Shown: piece by piece, positions 9,176-18,379 of the stretch | How positions within the stretch are numbered: position 1 is the stretch's first letter | Layout: every line of letters starts with the position of its first letter | From: Thamnidium elegans | Lineage: Eukaryota > Mucoromycota > Mucoromycetes > Mucorales > Mucoraceae | Length of the DNA: 64,000 bases | Reading direction: 5' to 3' | NCBI GenBank assembly: GCA_025201345.1 | Contig: JAIXMG010000007.1 | Span: forward strand, 744,001 to 808,000 | Translations under genes and position numbers: made by a program | Notes under the pieces: generated by a model | Databases searched by the model: none | Seen by the model: only the letters and a program-made list of their open reading frames with translations | Told to the model about the DNA's origin: nothing

Positions 9176-10167
9176 TATATATAAAAGTTGTATGTATGTA
9201 TATATAAAAGAAAAAAAAACAAGTGTATAAAAGAGAGAGAGAGGGGAAATCGCTTTTTAAGAAAAAATTTGTTACTTAGGAACTTTTTTTTTTTTTTTTT
9301 TTTGAGTCAAATATATAAAACTCGGGTGACGTGAGTTGAAAATTTTTTGTTTAATGAATTTTTATTGGCTCACTTTTTTTAACATAAATTATATGGCCTG
9401 AATAAAATTTGCAACGGTTATTCATGTTGCTTTATGCTTGATTTATCCATTTGCGTTCATTAAAACACATGCTATATATTTTAGCCAAAGCTATAAACTC
9501 TCTCCCCAATCTCTTTCTTCCCCAAGTTTTGTTGTCAAAAGTATAATTTTAATTCAAGGGGAGACCCCCCTGCTCTTCCTATTGGATGTAAGAACTGAGT
9601 TTTTTTTTTTTTTTTTCGTATAGTATATTCTGGAAAAATGATGCTTTTTTTGACATTTTATTCCCTACTCTCCCGAGTTCTCATATTCTCTAGTATCTAA
9701 TAGGCTGCTATTTTATTCTAGCCATTTTATGAGTCAATGCATCACTTTTTTTTATGCTTTAAATACTAATCTGGTTAATTCTTCTTATCATAGTAACACC
9801 ATTCATATCCCAAATACGGGAGATCTTATTGTTCAACACGTAACCTTTTTTTACCATTTATAAATAATTGTAAGGGATAAAATCTATTTACATTTGTTAA
9901 TTTTTATAAAAAATATGTATCGGTTTTAGTTCTGTTTCGAGATCGCAAATATCAGAAAAAGTTTATTATTATCTTGTCTAAAATATTCTGTGCACAAAAC
10001 CAACAAGTTGAAATAACTAGAGTTTGTTTATTAAAGTTTACCTTTAAAGTACATTGTTAAATGCTATTTCTTGCAATCAGATAACGGTAAACCTTACGGA
10101 AATGAATGTGAAACATAACACAGTCTACGTACACTACTTTGACAAAAGTAGTCAAAAAATAAGAAGT
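9176..10167. other. Intergenic: PPR promoter to tRNA
   Basis: No coding signal beyond chance ORFs. AT-rich, with T runs near 9284 and 9600. The part adjacent to 9176 is the PPR promoter region. Confidence 0.55.
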
Positions 10168-10239
10168 GAGGCTACCAGGGGTCGAACCTGGAATCTCCTG
10201 ATTCGTAGTCAGACGCCTTATCCATTGGGCCATAGCCCC
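10168..10239 (-). tRNA. tRNA-Arg(ACG)
   Basis: Reading the minus strand gives a 72-nt cloverleaf. The acceptor arms GGGGCTA and TAGCCTC pair with one G-U. The D stem is GCC/GGC, and the anticodon stem TCTGA/TCAGG encloses the loop CTACGAA with anticodon ACG. The T arm is CCAGG-TTCGACC-CCTGG. No intron and no encoded CCA. A34 would be edited to inosine to read CGU, CGC and CGA. The gene stands alone in a 2-kb gap. Confidence 0.96.
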
Positions 10240-15327: not shown

Positions 15328-16639
15328 ATGTCTTCATTAGAGAAGGAATTGTTTAAAAAGCACATGTTACCACCACTTGGTACTTTATCAGAAGACGAAC
15401 AACAAAACTCAACAAGGTATATTTACATTTGCAGCTCATCTGAATCTTTTTTTGTTTTTGTTTTACTAAAGATGAAAATAGTTTATCTGAAAAGAAAACT
15501 GGAGCAGCAACTGAAAGAAAGTCAGATAAGCTTAAGCCATATTCTTGGAATGATTATTTTGATGAATGCCAAGATATTTCTATACCTGATACACCTGACA
15601 TATCCTTTAATATATTTACTAAAACCAAAAAAAAATTAATGCATATATCATATATCTTTAACTCAATATAATACACCTTTCGTATTTACAAGATAAATCC
15701 TAGAAAAGAAAATGGCCCTTTGTTTGTTATGCATCATGGTGCTGGTTCTTCTGCTTTAACTTTTGGTTTAACTGCAAGCCATATTAAAGAATTATCAAAC
15801 GGCGAATGTGGTGTAATTGCAGTCGATTGTAGAGGCCATGGAGCCACGAAAACTAAAGTGTTTGATAATGATTTTTCATTGGAATGTTTGTCTCAAGATT
15901 TTATAAATATTATTCAATTATGTGTCAAGCCAAATCAAGATATTATTCTAGTTGGACACAGGTAAATTTTTTATTGTATCGTAAATAAGATATATACATA
16001 CATATTAAAACAATTTATTTTAGTATGGGTGGCTCTGTTGTAGTCAATGTGGCCCATAAAAGACTATTAAAAAATGTGATTGGTGTCACTGTACTTGATG
16101 TAGTAGAAGGATCTGCTATAGATGCATTATCATCCATGACTAAAATATTAAGCTCTAGACCTGTTCGATTTAATTCATACGAACAAGCAATTTTGTGGAG
16201 TTATCAATCAGACACTGTTAATAATATAGAGTCAGCTAAACTTTCAATTCCTGCTTTACTTGAGTTGGAAGACGATAAAGCTGAAAAGCTAAAGTGGATT
16301 ACTGATTTAACAAAGACTCAACCTTTTTGGACAGAATGGTTTCAAGGATTAAGTGATAAGTTTTTGAATTCTGGTACTGCCAAATTACTCATCTTGGCTG
16401 GAACCGATAGATTAGATAAACCATTAATTATTGGTCAAATGCAAGGTATTAAAGCAAGTCGTTATATATGTTTTTTTGTTTCTAACTTTGTCGTTGTTGT
16501 AGGAAAATTTCAATTGAATATATTTCCTGATGCTGGTCACTTTCTTCAGGAAGATAAACCTTTGAAAACTGCAAACTGTTTAATAGAGTTTTGGAAACGA
16601 AACCAACGTCTTGTGTTGCCACCCAAAGTTAAAATATAA
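15328..16639 (+). CDS. PPE1: Protein phosphatase methylesterase 1 (PP2A demethylase)
   Basis: Alpha/beta hydrolase that removes the C-terminal methyl ester from the PP2A catalytic subunit. Exons 15328-15416, 15482-15599, 15675-15961, 16024-16445, 16503-16639 give 350 aa. Features: KPYSWNDYFDE and DISIPDT at the N-terminal cap, MHHGAGSSALTF oxyanion loop, RGHGAT, the nucleophile elbow GHSMGG (Ser165, split by intron 3), LAGTDRLD with a candidate acid, and FPDAGHFLQED with the histidine. Introns 1, 3 and 4 are GT-AG. Intron 2 (15600-15674) begins ATATCCTTT and ends AC, and its removal joins Asp69 to TFRIYK, matching the DTFRVYKSG segment of the human enzyme. It is described separately as a candidate U12-type intron. 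Confidence 0.93.
15600..15674 (+). other. Candidate U12-type AT-AC intron in the PP2A methylesterase gene
   Basis: 75-nt phase-0 intron. The donor ATATCCTTT is a full match to the U12 AT-class 5' consensus. TCTTTAAC at 15655-15662 resembles the U12 branch consensus TTCCTTAAC (7 of 9 over 15654-15662), with the branch A about 13 nt before the end. The terminus is AC. The only GT in the stretch lies after the AC end, so a normal donor is not available. The split joins conserved residues without loss. Confidence 0.85.
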
Positions 16640-16972: not shown

Positions 16973-18379
16973 ATGGGAATTCTAGGTTTAACAAAACTTA
17001 TTTCTGAACATGCACCTGGTGCTATAAAGAGTCATGAAATGAAGAGTTTCTTTGGTCGTAAAGTAGCTATTGATGCTTCCATGTGTATTTATCAGTTTAT
17101 GATCGCTGTACGTCAACAGGATGGCCAGTTATTACAAAATGCAGACGGTGAGACCACAAGTCATTTAATGGGCTTGTTCTATCGTACTGTACGTATGGTA
17201 GATAATGGTATTAAACCAGTTTATGTTTTTGACGGAAAACCACCTACTTTAAAATCTGGTGAAGTAAGTTATTTATTTTTTATTTCTCGGTTCTATTGAA
17301 GCTTAACAACCTCGTTTTTTTTTTTTTTTTTTTTAAAAAAAAAGTTGGCTAAAAGAAAAGCTCGTAAAGAGGAAGCACAAGCAAAGATGGAAGAAGCAAA
17401 TGAAGTAGGAACAGTAGAGGATGTAACACGATTTTCAAAGAGAACTGTCAAAGTCACTAAAGAACATAATGATGATTGTAAAAAGTTATTAAAAACAATG
17501 GGTATTCCTTTTGTCGAGGCACCTTGTGAAGCAGAAGCTCAGTGCGCTGAATTAGCTAAATCCGGCAAAGTATTTGCTGCTGCATCTGAGGACATGGATA
17601 CATTGACATTTGCTTCACCCATTCTTTTACGTCATATGACGTTTTCCGAAGCCCGTAAGCTTCCTATTGACGAAGTTAATCTTCAAAAGGCATTGGAAGG
17701 TATGGAGATTGATATGAATCAATTCATCGATCTTTGTATTATGATGGGATGCGATTACACACAAACTATCAAGGGTATTGGACCAACCAATGCTTACAGA
17801 TTAATTAAGGAACATAAATGTATTGAAGAAGCTATTAAACATTTAAGTCCTAAACAAAAAGAGGGTATTCCCGAAGACTGGAATTTCGCTGAAGCTCGTG
17901 CTCTTTTTGTTAATCCTGAAGTAAAGCCTGGATCAGAAATTGAGGTAAATATCTTTTTTTTTTCTAAAAAAAAAGGAAAAAAAGAAAGACTAAATAGTTT
18001 ATAGCTTTCTTGGGATGGGCCTGATATGGATGCTTGTATTCAATTCATGGTGAATGAAAAGGGTTTTGCGTAAGTTTTGAAATAATTATCATGGTTTTTA
18101 TAATAACTTACATGTGGATTTATAGTGAGGATCGTATTAGAAAAGGCTGTGAAAAGATTGCAGCCAAATTTAAGCAAGCTACTCAAACAAGAGTACAGGA
18201 TTTCTTTAGGGCTTTACCCTCAACATCTGCGCCTAAAAAGGTAATTTCGCTTTATCTTTTTCTTTTTTTTTTTTTTAAGTGGTTATTTATTTTATTTTGA
18301 ACGGTAGACTGATCTCAAGAGAAAAACTGGTAAGGACACTCCCAAGAGAGGAGGTTCATCAAAGAGAGGTAGACGATAG
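16973..18379 (+). CDS. Flap endonuclease 1
   Basis: Structure-specific nuclease that removes 5' flaps in Okazaki fragment maturation and base excision repair; the yeast counterpart is Rad27. Exons 16973-17263, 17345-17944, 18005-18069, 18126-18240, 18308-18379 give 380 aa, the standard FEN1 length. N-domain: [15 protein letters not shown] (Asp34), VFDGKPP (Asp86). I-domain: [12 protein letters not shown] (two Glu), SEDMDTL (two Asp), [13 protein letters not shown] with the helix-hairpin-helix. The PCNA-binding box QTRVQDFF lies at residues 339-346, and the tail is Lys/Arg-rich. All metal-binding acids are intact. It sits head-to-tail after the methylesterase and converges on the M28 gene, leaving 69 bp between stop codons. 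Confidence 0.97.

Follow-up and report, generated by a model that had tools for sequence, protein, structure and literature searches.

Is the 75-nt segment that interrupts the PP2A methylesterase (PPME1) gene of Thamnidium elegans a U12-type AT-AC intron, and does this fungus carry the minor spliceosome that such an intron would need? All positions given without a contig are those of the window, the whole 64,000-nt stretch of DNA that was analyzed. Since the motifs, the reading frame, the snRNA matches, the presence of SNRNP25 and the footprint of the donor in the protein models of relatives all point to the U12 class, we conclude, with a probability of about 0.95, that 15600-15674 is a U12-class AT-AC spliceosomal intron and that the PPME1 gene holding it, present as a single copy in this fungus of the Mucorales, is functional.

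Three papers (PMC2846911, PMC4133162, PMC10639083) already describe minor splicing in the Mucorales, so that the initial annotation was correct in stating that U12 introns occur in some early-diverging fungi, the Mucorales being among them. U12 introns and minor snRNAs are in print for Rhizopus and Phycomyces (sections of PMC2846911 and PMC10639083), and Table 2 of PMC2846911 gives one AT-AC U12 intron for Rhizopus oryzae and eight or nine, depending on the method, for Phycomyces blakesleeanus; these share class, donor rule and fungal order with the PPME1 intron. The pan-eukaryotic survey lists Mucor lusitanicus in the legend of its figure 3 (PMC10639083, in part). Neither PPME1 nor methylesterase occurs in the main text of PMC2846911, the supplementary list of which might include a Phycomyces PPME1 intron, and none of the main texts searched names a minor intron in PPME1. 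Thus, the intron class, the minor spliceosome in the Mucorales and the short U12 described below are already known.

The PPME1 gene and its predicted AT-AC intron

The PPME1 gene occupies positions 15328-16639 of the plus strand, and its five exons join into a product of 350 aa. The best solved relative of this product is the PP2A methylesterase PME-1 (3c5w; E 4.3e-68, residues 48-339), and one copy of the gene was reported in the genome (34.1 Mb, 64 contigs); the similarity over the catalytic domain and the single gene identify it as PP2A methylesterase PME-1. Its features are as follows.

15328..15416, plus strand: PPME1 exon 1 (open joined frame; the PPME1 protein matches its own genome at PPME1 only)
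15417..15481, plus strand: intron 1, GT-AG, 65 nt, phase 2 (gene model)
15482..15599, plus strand: PPME1 exon 2, ending ...SIPDTPD (gene model, PME-1 match)
15600..15674, plus strand: intron 2, predicted U12-type AT-AC, 75 nt, phase 0 (motifs, frame, PME-1 match, junction enumeration)
15600..15608, plus strand: predicted 5′ splice site ATATCCTTT (complement in U6atac, GAAAGGAG; complement in U11, AAAAGGGC)
15655..15662, plus strand: predicted branch motif TCTTTAAC, within a 12-bp U12-pairing stretch with one A bulged
15673..15674, plus strand: predicted 3′ splice site AC (sequence and frame)
15675..15961, plus strand: PPME1 exon 3, beginning TFRIYK and containing HHGAG (gene model, PME-1 match)
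15962..16023, plus strand: intron 3, GT-AG, 62 nt, phase 2 (gene model)
16024..16445, plus strand: PPME1 exon 4 (gene model)
16446..16502, plus strand: intron 4, GT-AG, 57 nt, phase 1 (gene model)
16503..16639, plus strand: PPME1 exon 5, including the stop codon (gene model)

The three PPME1 introns other than the AT-AC intron are all GT-AG and measure 57-65 nt. Elsewhere in the window, a tRNA gene on the minus strand (10167-10239) was the sole Rfam match above cut-off, and a FEN1-like gene with an XPG domain follows PPME1 from about position 16973 onward.

Intron 2 lies between GAC (D69) and ACC (T70), starting with ATATCCTTT and ending with TATCTTTAACTCAATATAATAC. Its retention would bring an in-frame TAA into the message, and its removal, in phase 0, yields DTFRIYK in frame. 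The U12-type branch consensus is approximately TTCCTTRAC. The donor at 15600 satisfies the U12-type rule RTATCCTT(T), and TCTTTAAC resembles the branch consensus with a single C-to-T departure, can pair with U12 and leaves 12 nt to the end of the intron, which falls in the range of roughly 10-20 nt expected for U12-type introns. The termini, which in U12-type introns are AT-AC or GT-AG fitting the coding frame, are AT-AC here and give DTFRIYK. The AT-AC intron proposed by the initial annotation stands in its donor, branch, terminal AC and coordinates. Its further claim that splicing restores a counterpart of human DTFRVYK is borne out by the solved PME-1 structure (3c5w), where DTFRVYK is contiguous and aligns with DTFRIYK of the spliced product.

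Alternative junctions and chance occurrence of the motif

The best-surviving alternative, which we nevertheless consider very improbable, is that the segment belongs to a major (U2-type) intron that uses a weak GT-AG or GC-AG junction, the AT-AC motifs having arisen by chance. Only two GT dinucleotides, at 15521 and 15682, are present in 15482-15700. Of the GT-AG and GC-AG pairs whose donor fell within 15485-15699 and whose acceptor lay no further than 15829, 11 junctions kept an open frame, among them GC-AG 15641-15703 (354 aa) and GT-AG 15521-15703 (314 aa), so that candidates for a major intron do exist. However, the acceptors of all 11 lie at or beyond 15692, and TFRIYK, a stretch matched both by solved PME-1 and in many fungal homologues, is therefore deleted in every case. 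The donors are also poor (GCATATAT, GTCAGATA), and a strict U12 AT-AC motif is rare, with 0.03 expected per copy of the window. We rejected these junctions, in agreement with the earlier claim that no usable GT donor is available here. Open frames were also obtained with 14 AT-AC pairs, some of which retain FRIYK (for example 15602-15676, giving DIFRIYK); the U12 donor at 15600 is used by two of them only, and of these two 15600-15674 alone keeps TFRIYK.

How often the motif arises by chance was estimated by generating Markov copies of the window sequence. In its strict form (AT donor, YTTTAAC, AC) the motif occurs once in the window versus a mean of 0.03 in second-order copies (6 of 200 copies with at least one), and a looser AT/GT-class motif once versus a mean of 0.18 (33 of 200). 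The loosest form also occurs once, at 15600, versus a mean of 0.5 in first-order copies (18 of 40). Because the Markov copies also yield such motifs, the motif by itself is not decisive. The decisive point is its position, exactly where the protein requires a junction.

Minor-spliceosome components in the genome

We searched the genome with covariance models of the minor snRNAs. U11 (67.9 bits) and U6atac (59.5 bits) gave matches above the Rfam cut-off, whereas the matches to U12 (47.6 bits, E 3.8e-7) and U4atac (46.8 bits, E 1.0e-5) fell below the Rfam gathering score of 53 for each; both were the sole match reported for their model and reached both model ends. None of the U11, U12, U4atac, U6atac and U4 models produced a match at cut-off in 14 control genomes. 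At the U4atac locus, cmscan listed U4 (41.6 bits) and not U4atac; the best U4 match (99.3 bits) is on a different contig. Of six weak U6atac matches, the three inspected (L004, L008 and L009) carry an ACAGAGA box and resemble major U6 genes.

The U12 match (locus L001, 1501-1606, minus strand) comprises 106 nt versus 151 positions in the model and is without most of the 3′ stem-loop region of the model. This length fits the reduced U12 that has been described in basal fungi, Lichtheimia corymbifera among them, with an atrophied third stem and a short last stem (PMC4133162). In that study U4atac went undetected in Lichtheimia, whereas a U4atac match is present in T. elegans. Like T. elegans, Rhizophagus irregularis has the full set of four minor snRNAs together with an orthologue of SNRNP25 (PMC10639083).

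Among the proteins, SNRNP25 (U11/U12-25K) was found by profile search, at 41.0 and 28.3 bits over the cut-off, with the U11/U12 25 kDa protein 8r7n as best match (E 1.8e-10). In keeping with the minor spliceosome that the intron would, according to the initial annotation, place in this organism, the genome holds matches to U11, U12, U4atac and U6atac together with SNRNP25; the contrary outcome that it had named, a genome devoid of all minor-spliceosome components, was examined and is not what these five matches describe. The zf-U11-48K profile gave below-cut-off matches only, and it also matched two prokaryote controls, one of them above cut-off.

CENATAC, whose main interactor is TXNL4B, promotes the splicing of AT-AC (A-type) introns in human cells (PMC8280824). 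The CCDC84/CENATAC profile found nothing in the T. elegans genome and was equally silent in all controls. The DIM1 profile found at least one gene, which is TXNL4A (contig 12, 113500-114300, locus L177), with E 8e-86 against 1qgv (TXNL4A) versus 1.5e-27 against TXNL4B; a TXNL4B paralogue was not detected in this search of the genome, the counts of which are lower bounds. CENATAC and TXNL4B are thus possibly missing from the genome, their absence being unproven. It is conceivable, and in our view rather unlikely, that branch-site specificity has shifted in the minor spliceosome of this line of fungi, which would also splice an AT-AC intron without CENATAC and TXNL4B and might serve no more than a handful of introns.

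Pairing of the snRNAs with each other and with the intron

Pairing energies were judged against 1000 shuffles per duplex. Stem II of U4atac/U6atac reached −29.7 kcal/mol, an energy attained by none of the 1000 shuffles; the 5′ part of major U4 with U6atac reached −10.9 kcal/mol, as did 388 of 1000 shuffles. With another cut of the 5′ part of the U4atac locus, the energy was −33.2 with U6atac versus −24.0 with major U6, the latter being fairly good as well. The branch region of PPME1 forms 12 bp with U12 with one A bulged (−11.2 kcal/mol; 5 of 1000 shuffles). Four other duplexes were compatible with pairing but not outstanding: the 5′ splice site with U11 (20 of 1000 shuffles reaching the energy) and with U6atac (64), stem I of U4atac/U6atac (176) and helix I of U6atac/U12 (186).

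The branch-binding stretch of the U12 match, GAGUAAGGAUAA, differs at one base from the Rfam consensus, GAGUaAGGAAAA, and the U at the altered position lies opposite an A of the PPME1 branch region, TATCTTTAAC. The duplex of this U12 with the PPME1 branch region is stronger than that with a consensus oligo (−11.2 versus −8.8). That the base change in U12 is matched by an A of the PPME1 intron is suggestive only, this being one intron and an AT-rich stretch.

U2-type AT-AC introns have a different donor sequence from that of U12-type introns. That the major spliceosome removes 15600-15674, which would then be a U2-type AT-AC intron, a kind that is known in human (PMC8280824), is less probable still than the use of a weak GT-AG or GC-AG junction, because the donor matches the U12 consensus in full, pairing between the branch region and the genome's own U12 extends over 12 bp and minor snRNA matches are present.

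For the U12-class intron, we infer that 15600-15674 is actually spliced, by steps that are established for minor introns generally. U11, and then U6atac, would recognise the donor ATATCCTTT. U12 would pair across TATCTTTAACTCA, a single bulged A serving as the branch point, and cleavage at the AC 12 nt downstream of the branch motif would join GAC to ACC, giving DTFRIYK.

Search for further minor introns

The search of the genome was restricted to exact donors with AA directly after them. One such 11-mer, ATATCCTTTAA, occurs at 114 places versus 25 for the reversed pattern, and GTATCCTTTAA at 59 versus 10. Both are thus in excess over their reversed controls, and some of the copies are repeats. 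The first 100 of the 114 ATATCCTTTAA places together with the window gave 91 distinct sites; the contig of PPME1 is among the 14 remaining places, and its site was taken from the window. With frames ignored, the top branch score was reached at six of the 91, PPME1 included. A loose filter combining branch and open frames passed 13 sites, of which PPME1 alone had the top branch score; the filter chose the AC at 15676 for PPME1, indicating that it is a filter and not a splice prediction. All 59 GTATCCTTTAA places, taken as 301-base stretches, gave 46 distinct sites, two with the top branch score, and three passed the loose frame test.

These three candidates were judged unconvincing: in L137 the frame passes straight through, in L144 it closes 21 codons downstream of a candidate intron of 49 nt, and L118 has only 14 testable downstream codons. 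Controls with scrambled donors yielded 1, 0, 0 and 0 sites and are therefore uninformative about the score distribution. Among the 91 and 46 distinct exact-donor sites of this narrow search, we found no second convincing minor intron, as compared with 205 predicted minor introns in Rhizophagus irregularis (PMC10639083, in part) versus the one found here.

Trace of the donor in the protein models of relatives

Translated in frame, ATATCCTTT reads I-S-F, so that the donor can be recognised in a protein model. Among 120 homologues of PPME1 listed of 3442 found, five carry ISF at the junction codon, and four others carry ISF outside the junction region. The five are models from Mucor circinelloides, Benjaminiella poitrasii, Fennellomyces sp., Circinella minor and Phycomyces blakesleeanus, all of which we take to belong to the Mucorales. 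The model from Circinella umbellata reads TSN-IFRIYK, that is, a proper join. These ISF models suggest that the U12 donor, and the intron with it, probably predates T. elegans.

We hand-picked from the 120 listed homologues 39 named models that presumably represent Mucorales, some species contributing more than one. Five of these 39 contain ISF, 14 are without a normal junction and 20 are joined, one of the latter, from Lichtheimia ornata, being shortened just before the junction. In the joined models the intron may be correctly annotated or may be lacking. The 14 abnormal models include four in which the C-terminal half of PPME1 is fused to the next gene, one that starts at HHGAG and one partial model, and the AT-AC intron therefore need not explain all of them. 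The best-scoring named relative among the matches listed, from Mucor flavus (82% identity), is a model without exon 2, and Helicostylum pulchrum (Mucoraceae) matches the C-terminal half of PPME1 at 95% identity, with 52% of the query covered. By its closest protein relatives the fungus probably belongs to the Mucoraceae. Four of the 120 listed models, those of H. pulchrum, Mucor mucedo, Rhizopus microsporus and R. delemar, combine the C-terminal half of PPME1 with XPG domains; two of the four were inspected.

That PPME1 is instead broken at 15600-15674, by pseudogenization or a sequencing error, with the AT-AC reading a coincidence, is the least probable of the alternatives: the rest of the 350-aa frame is intact, the gene is single-copy and ISF stands at the junction codon in five other Mucorales models.

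Implications

The U12-class intron of PPME1 provides the Mucorales with a clean, testable minor intron, and the gene that carries it is a conserved housekeeping gene. A likely annotation problem is flagged as well: the donor is translated in 5 of the 39 named Mucorales PPME1 models and 14 more are without a normal junction, some perhaps from other causes. If the base change in U12 were matched in other introns as well, it would indicate co-evolution of an snRNA with its few targets. Should the absence of CENATAC and TXNL4B prove real, this Mucor-group fungus would offer a natural experiment on the requirements of AT-AC splicing.
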